Source: Verrucomicrobiota bacterium (GTDB lineage: Bacteria > Verrucomicrobiota > Verrucomicrobiia > Verrucomicrobiales > DEV007). Taken from it: a stretch of 14,625 bases of DNA. Below the pieces are notes generated by a model, which had not been told where the DNA came from, did no database searches, and saw only the letters and a program-made list of their open reading frames with translations. Shown here piece after piece: positions 4,869 through 13,214 of this stretch. The stretch's first letter is position 1. Each line of letters opens with the position of its first letter. The stretch covers positions 1 to 14,625 of the forward strand of contig JAQCER010000016.1 in assembly GCA_027618625.1 (NCBI GenBank), given 5' to 3'. The position numbers and the translations under genes were made by a program.

Positions 4869-5450
4869 TCACTTCGATTCATCGGCCCTTCCCCTGAAAT
4901 CCGCATCGAAAACCGTGACTGCGAGCCATGGCCCATCTTCACTGTGAAAGGTTGCATCCCAGAACCAGGCGGACACATCGGTCCATGTCTGGTGATTGCG
5001 TTGACAACGAATCTGCTCGAAGGCTTCGATGCCCGTGTCAGTCGTGAACCGGGCCCATTGGCTGTCATGGTTGTCATCTTCGCCGCGGGTGATGATGTCT
5101 CGCGAGCGGATCTGGTGTCCCATTCCCTGCAGGCAGTCGGCAGAGGAATGCAGTTGGCGTGTGGCCCGGGTCACGTGCCGTAAGAGAACGTAGCGCTCGC
5201 CATCGGTGAACAGAGCGACATCACCGGGGAATCGATGGAGCGCGGCTTTCGCTTTGGCATCGAGTTCAACGGGAGCCAGCGCAGCTCCTTCGAATGTCCG
5301 CGGCCATGCAAATCCTTGGGTCGCGGGCTGATGATCAGCTTGGGCGTCCGAGTCGTCCGATTGCAAAGTGGGCAGTGCTGCGGCGATGGCACACTGCATG
5401 CAAATGATCGCCAGCATGACGTTGGATCGGCGGATCTCAGGGAATATCAT
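4869..5450 (-). CDS. EpsI-like exosortase-associated protein
   Basis: This 193-residue protein is the last gene of the exosortase unit. Its start overlaps the end of the exosortase gene by 14 bp, implying translational coupling. ATG 5450 is used; ATG 5417 (MLAIICMQ) would leave a tidier hydrophobic N-terminus. Residues 12-26 are hydrophobic (signal peptide or anchor) and the rest should be extracytoplasmic. The motif LHSSADCLQGMGH (100-112), with His101 and Cys106, resembles the H-x(4)-C-L-x-G-x-G segment of EpsI, the protein found fused to or beside exosortases. The Trp-rich TWTDVSAWFWDATF (155-168) has no function I recognise. EpsI is of unproven function; a partner role in sorting or processing is inferred from position and motif. 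Overall similarity to EpsI cannot be measured here. Confidence 0.72.
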   Translation of the reverse strand: MIFPEIRRSNVMLAIICMQCAIAAALPTLQSDDSDAQADHQPATQGFAWPRTFEGAALAPVELDAKAKAALHRFPGDVALFTDGERYVLLRHVTRATRQLHSSADCLQGMGHQIRSRDIITRGEDDNHDSQWARFTTDTGIEAFEQIRCQRNHQTWTDVSAWFWDATFHSEDGPWLAVTVFDADFRGRADESK

Positions 5451-6243
5451 GATGATAGCGGTAGTAGTGGATCGACTGCCAACGAGTGGTTTTCAACTTG
5501 CCGGCGAGGCCGAGTAAAAGGAATCCGGTTCCGGCAAATACCGAGAGTCCAACGCCGACGTGCCAGCCGGCTGGCACGTCAGCGATTCCCGCTTCTTCGA
5601 CGAATACCAGGGCACAACGGACGGCATTCGCGGCAACAATGATCGCAACAGCGGCGAGTGATCCGACTAGAAACGGCCGCCACTGCAGGCCAGTCCTGGC
5701 TGCGCCGATGTTGAACATCACCATGCCCACCCACAGCATACGAATACCACTGCACGGCGCATCGACGAGAATCGACTCACCCTGCCAAAGCAATGCGGCC
5801 CCACTGGCGTTGACGTCACATCCAGAAAGGTGAAGCAGCGTTGCCGCGCCTTTTGCGGCAATCACCCGCAGCGGGAATCCCGCAAAGAACTGGGCGGATG
5901 CCATGACTGGCAGCGAAAGGAGCAACAAGCCACGGATCCCCGGCGCTCCAGCCCCTGCCGGTAGCGCCAGCGCAAACGTCACCATCATCAGGCATCCCTT
6001 CAGCAGCGGTGGCAGCCATGAGAAGGTTGCCAGATAGATTCCTAACACTGCCACGATCGGCGTGAGGTGCTTCGGAGGATCGGCTGATCGACGTGTTTTA
6101 AGTGCGAACGCCAGCGCAATCAACAGCGCCAGGATGCCCCACGGTTCATCGGATCCATCGGTCATGCGCATCACGTACCAGCGGCCAACTGGCCAGAACG
6201 CGATCGCCAATGCGAAAAGGAGCAGGGCTCGGGAACGGTTCAT
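5437..6243 (-). CDS. Exosortase (EpsH/Xrt family transpeptidase)
   Basis: A 268-residue polytopic membrane protein with about seven to eight hydrophobic helices. The exosortase signature residues are present: Cys164 in DAPCSGIR, Arg209 in NAVRC and His228 in GWHVGVG, all at extracytoplasmic helix ends as expected. Exosortases recognise PEP-CTERM tails and are thought to cleave the tail and transfer the protein to a surface ligand. The gene starts 11 bp after a gene whose product ends in such a tail, which makes that product the obvious substrate. ATG 6243 (MNRSRALLL) is preferred because it gives a normal N-terminus leading into helix 1; an upstream in-frame ATG at 6285 would overlap the substrate gene by 31 bp. 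The exosortase subtype was not assigned. Confidence 0.9.
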   Translation of the reverse strand: MNRSRALLLFALAIAFWPVGRWYVMRMTDGSDEPWGILALLIALAFALKTRRSADPPKHLTPIVAVLGIYLATFSWLPPLLKGCLMMVTFALALPAGAGAPGIRGLLLLSLPVMASAQFFAGFPLRVIAAKGAATLLHLSGCDVNASGAALLWQGESILVDAPCSGIRMLWVGMVMFNIGAARTGLQWRPFLVGSLAAVAIIVAANAVRCALVFVEEAGIADVPAGWHVGVGLSVFAGTGFLLLGLAGKLKTTRWQSIHYYRYHHDIP

Positions 6244-6254
6244 GTTGCTTCGGT

Positions 6255-8333
6255 TTATCGACGGCTTGGTCGACTGCGCCCACACAGCAGGATGAACGTG
6301 GCCACTAGTGCGAGCAGGGCTGTTTGCGGCTCAGGGACTGCGGCATTGCTAACACCTTGTGGCAATGTCAGGGGCTGCTTCACCAGCGTCGGCACATCTG
6401 AGTTTTCCGGCGCACCCACCTCCGTATCCACGGCAATGAACGAAGTATACTCCGTCAGCAGGTTGTAACTGATACCAAGATTGGTCACCTCGCGAACGTC
6501 CTCATCGGTCTTATTCACGCCGATGTAATCGCTCAGTGTTGCAATGCGATTGCGCGCCCACAGATAGGGCAGCGCTGGGTTGGTGCGAGCGTCGCCAGTG
6601 TTGACCTCATGAACGTGGCGATAGCGCGAGCCATCTCCCCGCAGGCCAGTGACCTCGATGTTTCCACCAGCACTTCCGTGCCATTTGCCCCAGACCACCA
6701 ACGGGCGTTCGGCCATCACGTCCGGGTACCCCTTCGATTTTGGCTCCACGTCGTAGGCCTCGAAACCGTTGTAGAGGATCTCGATGTCCGTGAGCACCGG
6801 CGCAGAGATGTGGGCGTGCAATTTTTGCGCCATACTGGCTGCTTCTGCGGGACGGGTGACTACGAACGATTCACCTCCGCCCGCACGAGCGATGCCCTCG
6901 ATCAGGAAACGATTCACACTTGAGCCGATGCCAAATGCGAACGCGTTGGCCTCGCCAAGATTGTTGCGAAGCATGTCAAAGGCCTCGCGCTCGACCTGGA
7001 CATATCCATCCGTCACGATCACAATGCTGCGCGAATAGCCTTCGGCTTTTTCCAACGCCATGGCTCTCGACAGCGCGGGCAACAATTCCGTGCCACCGCC
7101 ACCGCCCTGTCGATCGATCAGTGCGTTCGCCTTCTTCAGGTTTGATGCCGTGGCTGCAAGAGGCCGTTGCGACAGCACTTCGGACGAGCCGGCGAAGAGC
7201 AGGACATTAAAGCGATCGGTCGGGCGCATCTCTTTCAACAGGTTCGCCATCAGCTGCTTCGCTGTGTTCAGAGGAAACCCTTCCATCGATCCCGATACAT
7301 CCAGCACGAAGACGTATTCGCGCTTCGAGACATCTTCGTTCTTCACTCGCGCTGGAGGTTGCACGGTCAGCAGAAAGAAGTTCTCGCCAGCACCTGCTGC
7401 CGCTTCGTGCAGGAGCAGCCCGCTCGCCACTTCTTTCCCGGCGAGTTCATAGCGAAGAATAAAGTCGCGGTTGCCTCCATTGAGTTCTGACTCATCGAGC
7501 AGTATCTGCGCAGATGTTTCATTGCTGTAGTCGATCTTCACCGGATGGGAATCACAGGCGACAGACGTCAGCGGCACTCCGCCATTGACGCTCGCAGCGA
7601 TGCTGAATGCCGTGGGCGCCGGGATGTCCTTTTTCAGATACGGGTTGGCGATCCATTTCTCCGAATCCTTCGCTTCGCTCTCCCGCTGATTTGAGTAACG
7701 TGGCCCGACCACCGTAGGATACATGAACTCGTAGGTGCCCTCTTCCGGCACCAGATGCTCCGTGTAGCGCAGTTCGATCTCGACTTCGTCGCCCGGCAGA
7801 ACCCGTCCGATGTTCATCTGGAAAACGTTCGGTCTTTGCTGCTCCAGGAGCGCTGCGGTTTTCTTTTCGCTTTTCGCCTTTTCGAATTCCTGGCGTGCTT
7901 CGCCGCGTTCCAGCACCTTGGCTTCAATGGTCCGGTCGCCGATACGCATGGTCATGCCATGCACGGCAGAGCGCGTCGATGCGGGAAAAATATACACCGC
8001 GTCTATCACTCCACTACCCATGTTGGCGTAAAGCTGCTTGACCGTGACCTCCGCCATCACCCCGGAGATAATCACCGAAACATCGGTAGATCTCAGAGGG
8101 AACGCTACAGCGTTCGCATCACTGGTTTCCACGCTGAAGTAAGGGGACAACGTCTTGTCAGCGCCATCTGCGCCGCTGGCCCGCGCCGCCCACATCACGA
8201 TCGCAAGACCCACGCCTATCCCAAGAATTAGCGGTCGCAGCAACTGTTGCACGAGCCGGTTGATCTTGAGTTCATCTGGTAGATCTCCAACACCATCACA
8301 GGTATGCCATTCACGAATATCTTTCTTTGTCAT
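6255..8333 (-). CDS. VIT and vWA domain protein with PEP-CTERM sorting tail
   Basis: The 692-residue protein (from ATG 8333) resembles inter-alpha-trypsin-inhibitor heavy chains. Residues 31-51 form a hydrophobic segment preceded by an unusually long, charged ~30-residue N-region. The VIT domain spans about 78-207. The vWA domain (about 338-514) has a complete metal-ion-dependent adhesion site: D345-x-S347-x-S349, Thr415 and Asp442. Residues 667-669 are Pro-Glu-Pro, followed by a hydrophobic helix (about 672-684) and an Arg-rich end RSRPSRR, a textbook PEP-CTERM signal. The likely role is a surface-displayed adhesion or scaffold protein, anchored or released by the exosortase encoded 11 bp downstream. 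The frame stays open to ATG 8516, but those 61 extra residues look non-coding and would bury the export segment. The ligand of the vWA domain is unknown. Confidence 0.93.
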   Translation of the reverse strand: MTKKDIREWHTCDGVGDLPDELKINRLVQQLLRPLILGIGVGLAIVMWAARASGADGADKTLSPYFSVETSDANAVAFPLRSTDVSVIISGVMAEVTVKQLYANMGSGVIDAVYIFPASTRSAVHGMTMRIGDRTIEAKVLERGEARQEFEKAKSEKKTAALLEQQRPNVFQMNIGRVLPGDEVEIELRYTEHLVPEEGTYEFMYPTVVGPRYSNQRESEAKDSEKWIANPYLKKDIPAPTAFSIAASVNGGVPLTSVACDSHPVKIDYSNETSAQILLDESELNGGNRDFILRYELAGKEVASGLLLHEAAAGAGENFFLLTVQPPARVKNEDVSKREYVFVLDVSGSMEGFPLNTAKQLMANLLKEMRPTDRFNVLLFAGSSEVLSQRPLAATASNLKKANALIDRQGGGGGTELLPALSRAMALEKAEGYSRSIVIVTDGYVQVEREAFDMLRNNLGEANAFAFGIGSSVNRFLIEGIARAGGGESFVVTRPAEAASMAQKLHAHISAPVLTDIEILYNGFEAYDVEPKSKGYPDVMAERPLVVWGKWHGSAGGNIEVTGLRGDGSRYRHVHEVNTGDARTNPALPYLWARNRIATLSDYIGVNKTDEDVREVTNLGISYNLLTEYTSFIAVDTEVGAPENSDVPTLVKQPLTLPQGVSNAAVPEPQTALLALVATFILLCGRSRPSRR

Positions 8334-8548
8334 ATGAGTAAAACGTCTGGAATCAGTAGTTCCGTAGACCGTTTCACGCCGATGAGTAGAAGCCGTGAAC
8401 GCTGTGTGAATTCCCTGTGAAAAGGGGCGGCGCCAGAGAGGAGTCAGAGCGTGTGTTGGAATGTTGGAACCGGTGAAATTCCGCTCCAAATCTGCCATTT
8501 CCTGGGCGGTCGCCATCGCTGGGCACTCCGGGAAGTGCGAGCCGAATT
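8334..8548. other. 215-bp gap between the dikinase-like and VIT genes
   Basis: Both flanking genes read on the minus strand. A 5-bp-stem hairpin (GCACT/AGTGC, 8524-8538) lies just beyond the dikinase-like stop codon but has no T-tract. No confident promoter was recognised ahead of ATG 8333. Whether transcription runs through therefore remains open. Confidence 0.4.
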
Positions 8549-11131
8549 CTACTCCAGCCAGGGGCGTGCTTGCTTGATGATCAAATTACCCTCGGCTGTG
8601 ATTTTGAATTCGACTTCCATGGCGAATCCAGCAGGTGCTTCGTAGAGCGTTCGGAATCGTGCCTGGACGGTGTTGAGGCGGAGAGCCAGTTCTTTCGCTT
8701 GATCTGCTGTGAGAACTCTTTCGCCTTCAGGGATGCGGTTGGAAAAGCGCACGTATTGGATCTCGTAGGCGCTCCAGTCATCTGGATTGAGCTGGGCGAT
8801 GAGAAATTCCTCTGGAACGGATTCGTCTTCGGGATTCGTCACCAGATCCTCGCCGACCTGAACGTTAACGTAGATGCCGTTCCACGAGGGATTGACGATG
8901 TTCTTGGTGACGGCGACTCCATTGGCCTGCTCGTCGGCGTAGTTCGGATGGGCGAGGACGCCCATTGCTGCGGCGAAGTGGTTGATGCGATAGAAGTCGC
9001 GCTCTTCGAATGCCCGATAGGTCCACATGCCAGCCCAGACTTGACGCAGGGACTTGATCAGGTGCCCTTCGTCGGGATCGTGGGTGTAGGAATCGTAAAG
9101 CCCGGCACCATTGAAGTCTTTGAGGTCTTCATTGTTTGTGCTGGAGCGGCAGCGAATACCAGTGCCTGGCGGGAATGAATCCTTCAGCGCCTTCACTGCA
9201 TCCATCATCCATTGGGGTGCCTTTCCCGACTTTATCTTCGAGCGGAATTCTTTCAACCGCGCTTCCCGAACCGCCGGGTCAGCCTTGAAATCTGCCGCAC
9301 CGATCATCGTTTCCGCCATCTCATAGAATCCATTCGCCTGCATGAACGAATCATAAAAGTAGAACGGCACACCGAATCCATCAGGGGTCATCTCCAACGG
9401 CAGCATGCGGCGGAGTTCTGCAAGATTGGCAACCTTGGCTCCAAACGCAGAGGAACTCTCGAGCACCAGATCCGCCAACGGTGCAATACTGGTGGCGCTG
9501 AGGTCGCGTTCGGGACATTGCGACTCTTTGGGGCGCAGGTCTTCGAGGAATGCATCCACTTCTTCTTGAGTGGCTTCCCTGATCTCATAGCCGTCGGCAG
9601 TAACCTCGTAACGCACGTATTTGCCGATCAATGGAGCGATGTCAGGATTCGTCTCTGCGTCCCTGATGTAGGCGTTGGGCGTGTTGTTCTGGATGGCCTT
9701 GAGATTGACATGGGACAGCGGCGTCTGCGGGATCTCGGTGATGATGCCAGCGACGTGCGTCAGGTCATTAGGCAATGATCGAAAGATAACCAGATCCCTT
9801 GCGGTCAATGTTTCCCCTGCATTGGCAACGCGGAGCAAACCATAGCCCACTCCCATGTTCATGGCCGTGTAGGTGACGTTGCCAAAAAGTTCCTGTGTCG
9901 AAATCGATCGCACGTACGACTTTTCGAACTGCTCGCGCTCGACATTGAAGATCGTCCGCTGGGTCTCGGAAGCAGGATGGTAGACCACCTTGCTGTCCAC
10001 GAACGGCATCGCTGTGGTGAGCGCGTGGTAGGCTTTCTCCACGAATGAAAATTCGACCGGATCCGTGGGCCAGAATTCCATGGTGTAAATTCCAGCCCGC
10101 CCATCGGGGCCAACGTAGCTGTCGTGCGCGATCAGGCTGCCAGCCACGTTTTTCCGTTGAGAATTCGAAAAATAGGTCTCGGCATTGAACGGCGTGAGCA
10201 GGAAATTTTCGACGATGATATTCACATCCAGAATGGTCTCCCGCTGGAGTTCTTCCGAGCTGATTCCCGATTCCCAATAGGGGGCAAGGTCATCTTTCAA
10301 TGCGGCAATCAATGTTCGCTTTGAGCTGCGGAGCGCGTCTTCGCCAATGTCATCGATCTTGCGACTCCGGGAATCGAACACGCGGAAGTGCAGTTTGCCG
10401 TCGATGTTGCCAATGATCACCTGGCTCGTGCCGGTTGCAGGCAGTTCAGAAATGTTGTCTGCTTCGACCAGCGACAGGCTCATGTCGGCAGTGTAGCGGA
10501 GGACATCACGAGCGAAGAAAAAGTGATACAGGTGCCGGTTCGAGTTGAAGAAATGGATGGTCGGCGAGTCGGTGTCCGCGCCGAACATGAGGAACTTTAC
10601 TTCGCGCACATTCTGGGCACCTGGGACATCGTCACGGCGCGCGAGGAACTCGAAAGTCGCTCGATCGGGAATGGCGATGGCACCGTCGACCGAGGGAATG
10701 GAACGTCCAGGATTGAGTGGGTCATTCGCCGGATAGGTGGCCAATTCGACCGCATCAGAAATTCCGTCGCCATCCGCATCGCTCGCTGCCGCATCGGGAG
10801 TAATGACAACACTGTAGAGTGTGTCCTGATCGGGCAGAACGGGGTCACGCAGGGCCAGCTGGCCACCGGTGCCACTGGTGATCGCCACAACACTGCGTGC
10901 CGCAGGCTGCCCGATGCGTACCAGTTTGTAGTTGACGCCGGACTCGGAAGCAAATTGCACGCTGAACCGCCCGCTGGAGTCGAGCGCTGCATCGAGGCTG
11001 GGTGCGTCCAGCGGGTCCGCGGCCCGCGCCTGACTGATGCAGAGCAACGCGAGAGCAGCGACCGCAGGGATGGGAAAAACTCCCGGACCCGCGTGCATGC
11101 GCTGCTTCGCTGGGGGAAAGTGGTCGCTCAT
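8549..11131 (-). CDS. Secreted PPDK/glucan-dikinase-like protein, phosphohistidine and ATP-binding domains
   Basis: This 860-residue protein has a signal peptide (about 1-38, cleavage near ARA-AD). The start at 11131 keeps Lys/Arg in its n-region; ATG 11098 would lose them. After a short beta-rich region comes a calcium-binding thrombospondin-type-3-like motif, DADGDGISDAVEL (118-130). A unique region of about 300 residues follows. Around 445-485, AGIITEIPQTPLSHVNLKA contains His474 in the position of the swivelling phosphohistidine of PEP-utilising enzymes. Residues 561-858 match the PPDK N-terminal ATP-binding domain: FGAKVANLAEL, IRCRSSTNNEDL (659-670) and the closing EVEFKI…IIKQARPW. No PEP/pyruvate TIM barrel is present, so it is not a PEP synthase. 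His domain before ATP domain is the order of plant glucan water dikinase. The activity and target are unknown. It probably shares a function with the exosortase genes downstream. Confidence 0.87.
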   Translation of the reverse strand: MSDHFPPAKQRMHAGPGVFPIPAVAALALLCISQARAADPLDAPSLDAALDSSGRFSVQFASESGVNYKLVRIGQPAARSVVAITSGTGGQLALRDPVLPDQDTLYSVVITPDAAASDADGDGISDAVELATYPANDPLNPGRSIPSVDGAIAIPDRATFEFLARRDDVPGAQNVREVKFLMFGADTDSPTIHFFNSNRHLYHFFFARDVLRYTADMSLSLVEADNISELPATGTSQVIIGNIDGKLHFRVFDSRSRKIDDIGEDALRSSKRTLIAALKDDLAPYWESGISSEELQRETILDVNIIVENFLLTPFNAETYFSNSQRKNVAGSLIAHDSYVGPDGRAGIYTMEFWPTDPVEFSFVEKAYHALTTAMPFVDSKVVYHPASETQRTIFNVEREQFEKSYVRSISTQELFGNVTYTAMNMGVGYGLLRVANAGETLTARDLVIFRSLPNDLTHVAGIITEIPQTPLSHVNLKAIQNNTPNAYIRDAETNPDIAPLIGKYVRYEVTADGYEIREATQEEVDAFLEDLRPKESQCPERDLSATSIAPLADLVLESSSAFGAKVANLAELRRMLPLEMTPDGFGVPFYFYDSFMQANGFYEMAETMIGAADFKADPAVREARLKEFRSKIKSGKAPQWMMDAVKALKDSFPPGTGIRCRSSTNNEDLKDFNGAGLYDSYTHDPDEGHLIKSLRQVWAGMWTYRAFEERDFYRINHFAAAMGVLAHPNYADEQANGVAVTKNIVNPSWNGIYVNVQVGEDLVTNPEDESVPEEFLIAQLNPDDWSAYEIQYVRFSNRIPEGERVLTADQAKELALRLNTVQARFRTLYEAPAGFAMEVEFKITAEGNLIIKQARPWLE

Positions 11132-11360
11132 ATCATGTGCTTGTGCCTGCGTTTAAAGCCATCAGGGTCAGAGCTGTCACAGACTCCTCCTATTCCTCCA
11201 AAACTACTTCGTCCAGCGTGAACATGCAATGAATCCCGAGCAGTTGCAGTTGAGGGCCATTGGGGGCCATCGTTCGGGAAGCGAGCGAGATTTCTCGATC
11301 GAATGCGTAGCTGTGTTAGAAAGGTTGGCCTACTCTTCTTCCAAGACTATCGGTAACTCT
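11132..11360. promoter_or_regulatory. Divergent intergenic region, likely two promoters
   Basis: This 229-bp region separates the minus-strand dikinase-like gene from the plus-strand kinase–etherase gene and should hold both promoters. The frame of the latter stays open back to ATG 11229, so 11229-11360 could instead be coding. No clear -35/-10 pair or operator was recognised. The stretch AGGGTCAGA near 11164 shares nine bases with the REP-like repeat, too few to call. Confidence 0.35.
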
Positions 11361-13214
11361 ATGATTGAAAACGGCAAATGCGAGTCAAATGAACACATGA
11401 CCGTCCTCGGAATCGAGGGCGGGGGGACGCGAACGTCGGTGCTCGTTGTTGATGAAACGGATGCCGTTCTCGCCAGTCAAGCGGGTGGGCCTGCGAATTT
11501 TCGACTGATGACGACGCGCAATGTCGAGGACTGGCTCATCGGGATTCGTGAAAAGCTGGATGTGGTGCCTGACCGGATCGGCATTGGGATGGCGGGAGTG
11601 CGATCGGTGCGCGATCACTGGGTTCTGCGCGAGATTGTCCGCCGGGTTTGGCCAAATGCCTTGTGTGCGACCTCGGATGACATGCTGGTGGCGCTGGAAT
11701 CGGCGGAGTGGCTGGAACAGTGTCCGGCGCAAGTGCTGACGGTCAGTGGCACGGGATCGTGCTCGGTAGGGAGGCATCGTCACGGCGATGGTGTCAAAGT
11801 GGGTGGCAGGGGACATATTCTGGGCGACCGGGCCAGTTCCTGTGACATCGCGCAGCAGGCCCTCCGTGCAGTCGTCAGGGACTACGATTCGCGTGGTGAC
11901 TGGCCACAACTCGGCTCGGATATTCTCAGCTTCCTCCAACTGAATGAGCCGGATGAACTCATCGACTGGTCGATCGAAGCGACCAAGGCAGAGCTCGCTG
12001 GTGTCGCCCAAGTAGTCTTTCGGGCCGCAGAATCGCGACAGGATCCGATTGCGAACGAGGTCCTCGACGGCGCAGCTCGGCTGTTGTGTGCGGATACTCT
12101 GAAGTGTGCCGAGCGTATCGCCGAGCCTGACGAGCGCGTGCAGATTCTCTTTAATGGTGCGGTCTTTCTGAAGAATCCTGCCTTTATGCAAGAGGTGGCA
12201 AACCGGCTTCTTGAGGCGCGGCCTGGTTCCATTGTGACGCCACTGAGCCGGCCAGGTGTGCATGGCGCAATTGCCCTCGCGCGTGCGATCCCTGCTGGGG
12301 CAGAGAGTCGACCCTTGCCAATGTCACCAGAGAAGCAGCCTCGGAAGCCAGCGGCGCCCTCCGTTGACACCGTGCAAGCCGCGATCGGTTGGAAGCCTGT
12401 CTCGGCGTCACCTACGGAGCAACGCCATCCTCGGTCGATGAATTTTTCGGAGTTGCCGATTTCCGATGCGATCGCACTCATGCTCGACGAAGACGCAAAG
12501 ATCCCGGCAAAGATACTTGAGCAATCGGCATTCATCGAATGGACCATTCGTCGTGTGGTGCGTGCCTTTGCCGAAGGTGGTCGCCTGATCTACACCGGCG
12601 CTGGAACCAGTGGGCGTCTCGGCGTGCTGGATGCCAGCGAATGTCCGCCCACGTTCCGCACGCCGGGCGATCTCGTGCAGGGAATTATTGCCGGAGGGCG
12701 CTCGGCCTTGTGGAGTGCTGTGGAAGGTGCCGAAGATGACGCTGCCGCAGGTCGCCGTGCGGTACTCTTTCGCAGCGTCACCGAGCTCGACGTCGTTATC
12801 GGGATTTCCGCCAGCGGCCATGCTCCATTCACCTGGGGCAGTCTTGCAGAAGCAAAGGAACACGGTGCAGGCACAGTTCTCATCTGTTGCAATCCTGGCT
12901 ATCGGGATCATCCGCTGCCGGATTGCACTATTATCCCTGACACTGGTCCAGAGATCCTCACCGGTTCCACACGTCTCAAATCCGGCACCGCGACCAAGTT
13001 GATCCTCAATATGATCACCACCCTCGCGATGACCCATTCCGGCAAAGTGCTGAGCAACCTCATGATCGATCTGAATCCCTCAAACGCCAAACTCCGTGAC
13101 CGCGCCATCCGCATCGTGTCCGAGATCACTGGCGTCGAACCCCTGACAGCCCAACGAACCCTGGAGGACAACGGCTGGGTGGTCAGAGCAGCCTGCGATC
13201 AGCTGAGGGATTGA
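11361..13214 (+). CDS. murQ: Fused MurNAc/GlcNAc-type kinase and MurNAc-6-phosphate etherase
   Basis: The 617-residue polypeptide joins two enzymes. Residues 14-~310 form a BadF/BcrA/BcrD-type ASKHA sugar kinase: phosphate-1 loop GIEGGGTRT (17-25), presumed catalytic Asp106 in ATSDD, VSGTGSCS (128-135) and GGRGHILGD (148-156). After a Pro-rich linker (about 315-350), residues 357-617 match MurQ closely: SIS motif YTGAGTSGRLG (411-421), DASECPPTF with Glu427 and EGAED with Glu458 (equivalents of E. coli Glu83 and Glu114), TGSTRLKSGTA, and a UBA-like C-terminus. Expected reactions: ATP phosphorylates MurNAc, then the etherase yields GlcNAc-6-phosphate and D-lactate, recycling peptidoglycan in the cytoplasm. 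ATG 11361 was chosen; the frame opens at 11229, and ATG 11397 lies nearest the kinase core. The kinase's sugar is inferred from the fusion partner and from clostridial MurK. Confidence 0.92.
   Translation: MIENGKCESNEHMTVLGIEGGGTRTSVLVVDETDAVLASQAGGPANFRLMTTRNVEDWLIGIREKLDVVPDRIGIGMAGVRSVRDHWVLREIVRRVWPNALCATSDDMLVALESAEWLEQCPAQVLTVSGTGSCSVGRHRHGDGVKVGGRGHILGDRASSCDIAQQALRAVVRDYDSRGDWPQLGSDILSFLQLNEPDELIDWSIEATKAELAGVAQVVFRAAESRQDPIANEVLDGAARLLCADTLKCAERIAEPDERVQILFNGAVFLKNPAFMQEVANRLLEARPGSIVTPLSRPGVHGAIALARAIPAGAESRPLPMSPEKQPRKPAAPSVDTVQAAIGWKPVSASPTEQRHPRSMNFSELPISDAIALMLDEDAKIPAKILEQSAFIEWTIRRVVRAFAEGGRLIYTGAGTSGRLGVLDASECPPTFRTPGDLVQGIIAGGRSALWSAVEGAEDDAAAGRRAVLFRSVTELDVVIGISASGHAPFTWGSLAEAKEHGAGTVLICCNPGYRDHPLPDCTIIPDTGPEILTGSTRLKSGTATKLILNMITTLAMTHSGKVLSNLMIDLNPSNAKLRDRAIRIVSEITGVEPLTAQRTLEDNGWVVRAACDQLRD

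Follow-up and report, generated by a model that had tools for sequence, protein, structure and literature searches.

A candidate CreB-linked exosortase cassette with a presumed adjacent VIT/vWA substrate in a Verrucomicrobiota bacterium

The three genes of the cassette and their products

The window analysed here is the whole stretch of 14,625 nucleotides from contig JAQCER010000016.1 (assembly GCA_027618625.1) of a Verrucomicrobiota bacterium. Its minus strand carries an exosortase cassette of three genes which encode, in 5' to 3' order, a VIT plus von Willebrand factor A (vWA) protein (6255-8333, 692 amino acids, the presumed sole substrate of the cassette), an exosortase (5437-6243, 268 amino acids, ATG at 6243 and stop at 5437), and an EpsI-like partner (4869-5450, 193 amino acids). 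A preliminary description of the locus had read three packed same-strand genes in this order, separated by an 11-bp gap and then a 14-bp overlap, and the coordinates of the three open reading frames (ORFs) confirmed the order and both distances.

The VIT domain (residues 80-190, 7764-8096, minus strand) scored 111.9 bits with PF08487 against a cut-off of 26.5, and the vWA domain (residues 341-488, 6870-7313, minus strand) scored 69.2 bits with VWA_3 against a cut-off of 27. The Pfam scan of this protein identified no domain besides these two. Residues D345, S347, S349, T415, and D442, which match the vWA metal-site pattern, did not vary among 40 sequences, drawn from the window and from 39 of the 41 loci of sufficient length (L041 and L085 were left out). 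The structure model (mean predicted local distance difference test score, pLDDT, 79.5) showed an N-terminal helix at residues 21-51 (8181-8273, minus strand), a signal or membrane region predicted with low to moderate confidence. Human inter-alpha-inhibitor heavy chain 1 (ITIH1, 6FPY) was the best Foldseek match of the model, with an E value of 4e-36, and adhesin vWA folds (LapA, SpaC) were also among the matches.

The C-terminus had been called a PEP-CTERM tail (VPEPQTALLALVATFILLCGRSRPSRR), and this was borne out in part. The motif, the helix, and the basic end are present in the tail (VPEPQTALLALVATFILLCG..., 6270-6341, minus strand) and its PEP was invariant in the same 40 sequences, but the score of 15.9 bits lies below the PF07589 cut-off of 20.7.

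The exosortase scored 68.2 bits with PF09721, for which the curated cut-off is 25.7. Its Cys/Arg/His residues, noted in the preliminary description, are Cys164 (the presumed nucleophile, codon 5752-5754), Arg209 (5617-5619), and His228 (5560-5562), all on the minus strand. They did not vary in an alignment of 35 sequences, which comprised the window enzyme and 34 homologues taken from the 120 listed of 251, and we take them to be the active-site residues with a catalytic role.

The third gene gave no Pfam match up to E 1, and the EpsI model TIGR02914 was absent from its NCBIfam listing up to E 10, where the sole match was weak, at 25.7 bits, and fell in the C-terminal region of XrtT. Its position is that of EpsI, and its product resembles the EpsI-like region that relatives carry fused to the exosortase. 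The structure model (mean pLDDT 87.6) consists of one N-terminal helix and a small alpha/beta domain, for which the fold search found no convincing match. An alignment of 55 sequences, made up of the window and 54 of 73 loci, showed Arg91, Arg98, His101, Cys106, Gly111, Trp162, and Trp164 to be invariant. A 2006 paper described EpsI-like regions of no known function, either joined to EpsH-type proteins or encoded next to them, and placed EpsH genes nearly always among polysaccharide genes (PMC1569441).

Conservation of the VIT neighbour and the question of one substrate

Relatives were collected by a scan of one genome per species, from which the best 80 of 322 loci were kept. A VIT-protein homologue stood directly beside the exosortase at 76 of the 80, as the preliminary description would lead one to expect. 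At 45 loci it was a VIT/vWA protein like that of the window; the other 31 had a longer VIT protein akin to TIGR04477 (class 2). In both classes the gene lies directly upstream of the exosortase. The class-2 proteins were scanned at ten loci, counting L051, whose protein proved to be a kinase. Some VIT genes were cut at contig ends, and L047, L054, and L080 contain C-terminal fragments only. The VIT neighbour was missing at four loci: L069, which begins at a contig end, and L051, L062, and L078, which belong to one lineage. These last three have near-identical exosortases that are members of the VIT-linked group, and the upstream gene of L051, the only one of the three scanned, encodes a protein kinase fused to an FGE-sulfatase domain. 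An EpsI-like gene was downstream or fused at 77 of the 80 loci, and the remaining three end at that point.

An even sample of 115 Verrucomicrobiota genomes gave six with the enzyme at E ≤1e-15, the window's own included and none over the XrtQ cut-off; the VIT gene was directly upstream in all five others, one of which (G120) is, judged by coordinates, the genome of L111 again. Six of 299 Pseudomonadota genomes had the enzyme (centre genome G031 included, four over the XrtQ cut-off), and the adjacent VIT gene was present in 6/6, in L176 downstream instead of upstream. Because few sampled genomes carry the enzyme and a VIT gene adjoins it in all of them, the module is sporadic but tightly linked.

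The top-scoring named subtype for the enzyme was XrtQ (NF012182), at 153.6 bits against the NCBIfam cut-off of 270. XrtN, XrtT, and XrtO were also tried and gave 38.3, 55.5, and 45.8 bits, all below their curated cut-offs of 200, 250, and 250. An unrooted tree of 131 exosortases was built by a quick method, with three fragments and one short row left out and no XrtN sequences taken in. The window enzyme paired with L033 (support 100), outside the group of the XrtQ-passing enzymes L068, L102, L103, and L107. All 45 exosortases not linked to a VIT gene lay on one side of a single branch (Shimodaira-Hasegawa-like approximate likelihood-ratio test, SH-aLRT, 98), and the enzymes linked to a VIT gene clustered separately from the other exosortases found in their genomes. 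Across the tree, the two VIT substrate classes have replaced one another several times. Four exosortases (L161-L164) that adjoin the VIT-linked group had no VIT gene within 4 kb upstream.

XrtQ exosortases occur in Pseudomonas, Variovorax, and other Proteobacteria. The subtype shares with the window the gene order VIT/vWA, exosortase, EpsI-like, and the four enzymes over its cut-off all have an upstream VIT/vWA gene; the EpsI-like part is fused in those four enzymes and is a separate gene in the window. The nearest named subtype has the same cassette, but the score is below the cut-off and the branch lies outside the passing members. The VIT/vWA-exosortase pairing itself is already known, both from XrtQ as a named family and from 2011, when a PEP-CTERM member of the VIT/vWA family in Verrucomicrobium spinosum was reported with an exosortase as its cognate enzyme (PMC3237569). 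The locus had been presented as another instance of a pairing of VIT/vWA proteins with dedicated enzymes; the adjacency is indeed conserved, but the pairing is not new.

The preliminary description had further held that the vWA protein is the sole substrate of a self-contained system. The genomes of 40 of the 80 loci contained 89 exosortase matches and 106 VIT matches. A same-strand VIT gene within 4 kb upstream was found for 42 of the 89 exosortases, all of which scored at most 97.9 bits with PF09721; above this score there was none (0/41), and six low-scoring exosortases were also without one. A single exosortase was present in 13 of the 40 genomes, several of them metagenome-assembled genomes of unstated completeness; Variovorax ginsengisoli is an example with one exosortase. 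The number of PEP-CTERM proteins over the cut-off was one in seven of these (always the product of the adjacent VIT gene), none in five, and two in G018, so that in 12 of the 13 nothing besides the adjacent VIT protein passed. Weaker matches (up to E 0.3) added one more elsewhere in each of G011, G020, and G031.

The claim of a sole substrate thus stands by comparison with the relatives. The window's own genome is different: it has 23 other PEP-CTERM matches over the cut-off and a second exosortase on contig C35, which falls on the other side of the tree and probably serves the other PEP-CTERM proteins. The residue after PEP is Gln in the cassette tail, Glu in 20 of the 40 VIT/vWA tails, and Ser in 12 of the 18 readable other tails of the genome (11 further loci had no readable tail). 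A second VIT protein with a PEP-CTERM tail (984-986 amino acids) was found at L169 (G000:C580, 111-3071) and L171 (G001:C3, 2621-5575). It is preceded by a PEP-CTERM gene of 174-192 amino acids, the pair being conserved in both genomes, and no exosortase match was found in the stretches read. With the 23 other PEP-CTERM matches, the second exosortase, and this second VIT protein, the word self-contained therefore fits the cassette and not the genome.

The cre tags and the CreBC association

The window holds two exact cre tags (TTCAC-N6-TTCAC), compared with 0.04 expected, and none of 200 shuffles had two. Tag 1 (TTCACAGGGAATTCAC, 8406-8421, minus strand) overlaps tag 2 (TTCACACAGCGTTCAC, consensus TTCACnnnnnnTTCAC, 8395-8410, minus strand) and together they read TTCAC-N6-TTCAC-N6-TTCAC; tag 2 ends 61 bp before the VIT/vWA ATG. 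The cre/blr tag consensus TTCACN6TTCAC is stated in PMC4689548 and PMC3660660. The tags (8395-8421) form a conserved island common to the window and L033, upstream of which the sequence diverges. This comparison also bears on the start of the gene. The longest VIT/vWA ORF runs from 6255 to 8516, and the internal ATG at 8333 is the better candidate start, because L033 has an ATG at the same place, because the stretch from the tags to the ATG has a 16-bp gap relative to L033, which is no multiple of three, and because the likeness to L033 drops upstream of the tags.

Both strands of the 80 loci (2.0 Mb) contained 26 exact tags in all. Twenty-five of them lay within a stretch of 480 bp whose end is 40 bp upstream of the codon corresponding to residue 62 of the window's VIT/vWA protein, and all 25 point in the direction of the VIT/vWA gene; the remaining one belongs to L100, roughly 1 kb before the VIT gene of that locus. 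Upstream sequence was lacking at four of the 45 VIT/vWA loci. Among the other 41, an exact upstream tag was present at 20 and one with at most one mismatch at 32, and among the 39 with the full stretch the counts were 20 and 30. On the opposite strand there was no exact tag and none with at most one mismatch, and eight shifted windows gave no exact tag and at most one with one mismatch. The upstream regions of class-2 VIT genes (21 of the 31 loci tested) showed no exact tag and one with at most one mismatch.

Clusters of flanking genes at the 80 loci included a sensor kinase at 23 and a response regulator at 18. Ten of these cluster proteins were scanned with NCBIfam: all six kinases passed the CreC cut-off and three of four regulators the CreB cut-off, the failing regulator being at L058 beside a class-2 VIT gene. 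Of the 28 genomes that carry a VIT/vWA cassette, the window's own included, 27 had CreC over the cut-off (G040 did not), compared with 1 of 13 with class-2 VIT (p 2e-8), and in the even Verrucomicrobiota sample CreC at E ≤1e-80 was found in 5/5 VIT/vWA-cassette genomes (own included) compared with 11/110 others (p 3e-5); both p values are optimistic and overstate independence because the sequences share ancestry. The creC gene shared a contig with the VIT gene and lay no more than 5 kb from it in 17 of the 28 genomes. The CreC of the window's genome (G000:C37) scored 543.2 bits against a cut-off of 356. Here creC (L206, 2592-4085) has no creB match beside it, and the same neighbourhood is seen in a second genome (L213, G001:C38, 1947-3437). 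Strong CreD matches (E <1e-40) occurred in 10 of the 28 genomes, and creD was not found in the window's genome, a 71 percent complete assembly. CreD, the known CreBC target, was called "of yet unknown function" in 2009 (PMC2654508).

Beside the cassette, positions 8549-11131 (minus strand) encode 860 amino acids with a signal-like N-terminus and a PPDK_N ATP-binding domain (75.9 bits), the rest of PEP synthase being missing; an exported ATP-grasp-like protein would be odd. Positions 11229-13214 (plus strand) encode a single protein in which a BadF/NagK-like sugar kinase is fused to an N-acetylmuramic acid 6-phosphate etherase, two partners in peptidoglycan recycling. Downstream of the cassette at L068, L071, L094, L107, L109, and L058 a penicillin-binding-protein-like gene recurs, the resemblance being read from one sequence.

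Proposed function, alternatives, and meaning

We consider it probable that the locus is a CreB-induced, dedicated exosortase system that displays an ITIH-like VIT/vWA protein, and it seems to belong to the CreBC envelope-stress regulon. Active CreB would bind TTCAC-N6-TTCAC-N6-TTCAC and turn on the three co-oriented genes, as the site and the co-occurrence suggest. The VIT/vWA protein would be exported and would stay anchored in the inner membrane through its C-terminal helix, and the adjacent exosortase, judged by its family, would cut at the PEP motif by means of Cys164, Arg209, and His228. Once cut, the protein would be released, or passed on, towards the surface of the envelope. Assistance may come from the EpsI-like partner, which in relatives is often part of the same polypeptide as the enzyme and which perhaps hands the substrate to its acceptor. 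The displayed, ITIH-shaped protein with its conserved vWA metal site would probably support the envelope under stress.

Several known systems resemble this arrangement. The dedicated sortase system (TIGR03784, TIGR03785, TIGR03787, TIGR03788) also pairs a homologous VIT/vWA substrate with a dedicated adjacent enzyme, according to PMC3237569, and by family name it is associated with a two-component system. It differs in having a sortase and an LPXTG tail where the window has an exosortase and a PEP tail, and the regulators at the tested loci of the window's relatives score as CreB/CreC. The sortase target model TIGR03788 was tried for the window's VIT/vWA protein and rejected, with 407.9 bits against 551.65, a PEP tail, and an exosortase neighbour. 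XrtN (TIGR04476, TIGR04477) is likewise one enzyme named with one VIT protein. TIGR04477-like substrates, scoring under the cut-off of that model, also accompany relatives of the window enzyme, but the window enzyme itself falls far short of the XrtN cut-off. The CreBCD envelope-stress system shares with the window the cre/blr tag before the cassette and a CreC sensor in the genome; its known target is creD, whereas the output of the cassette would be a sorted surface protein. Human ITIH1 shares the VIT plus vWA architecture across 615 alignment columns of the Foldseek match to the predicted structure, at 16 percent identity.

A number of observations weigh against a CreB-induced, dedicated system. 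The VIT/vWA tail scores under the PEP-CTERM cut-off, the lineage of L051, L062, and L078 carries the enzyme without a VIT neighbour, G018 has its second PEP-CTERM match, several of the 13 single-exosortase genomes are metagenome-assembled and of unstated completeness, and the p values are optimistic given the shared descent. No creB match was present in the 9 kb read around the window's own creC; creB was not searched elsewhere in the genome. In the searched stretch, 9 of the 41 VIT/vWA loci, both from Pseudomonas included, had no tag with at most one mismatch. Exact tags are not enriched genome-wide in the window's genome (8 compared with 11 for the reversed control pattern), and 11 genomes of the even Verrucomicrobiota sample carry CreC but lack a cassette of this kind.

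The preliminary description had guessed at a surface-adhesion device. A device of this kind, under growth or surface cues and not envelope stress, is the alternative that fares best, and we regard it as possible yet rather unlikely. It fits the vWA domain with its conserved metal site and the adhesin folds among the structural matches. In the literature, CreBC is linked to biofilm growth in P. aeruginosa and XrtF is needed for colonisation and biofilm in Flavobacterium. Against it, the protein has no identified domain besides VIT/vWA, and the associated regulator is known, from PMC4689548 and PMC3660660, for metabolic and peptidoglycan-stress signals. Direct support for adhesion was not obtained; among the clues to function the CreBC link is the strongest, and it was absent from that description.

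A more specific version of the stress reading is speculative. The cassette may be an alternative CreBC output, replacing or beside CreD, in which the exosortase, together with the partner protein and its Arg/His/Cys residues, would couple a stress-displayed heavy-chain counterpart covalently to envelope or extracellular polysaccharide, much as heavy chains in animals are joined to hyaluronan. The animal inter-alpha-inhibitor heavy chain is attached by a different reaction. PEP-CTERM proteins stabilise surface exopolysaccharide in two flocculating bacteria (PMC12188702).

It is doubtful that some other response regulator recognises the TTCAC tags and that the CreC co-occurrence is indirect. The isolated creC of the window's genome and those loci of CreC-positive genomes that have no recognised tag would agree with such a regulator, but the orientation, 11-bp phasing, and position of the tags are specific to VIT/vWA genes, and proteins passing the CreC and CreB cut-offs are encoded directly upstream at several loci. 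Least probable of all is a general exosortase which also processes the genome's other PEP-CTERM proteins, the adjacency reflecting operon history only: the 23 other matches and G018 would suit it, but a further exosortase, placed opposite this one in the tree, the 12 of 13 single-exosortase relatives, and the residue after PEP argue against it.

The breadth of the group, its split into two VIT classes, and the CreBC promoter link were not found described in limited literature searches, in which the CreBC link was not searched in combination. Exosortases are usually considered in connection with exopolysaccharide genes and with a large, scattered set of substrates. In the present case one exosortase group has a single adjacent type of substrate, and its VIT/vWA class has an apparent envelope-stress promoter. 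The cassette is a simple enzyme-substrate pair on which the chemistry of exosortases and their acceptor could be tested, and it is a new candidate output for CreBC across several phyla. With its apparent CreB sites, the cassette suggests a function that can be tested for a class of sorting systems about which little is understood.

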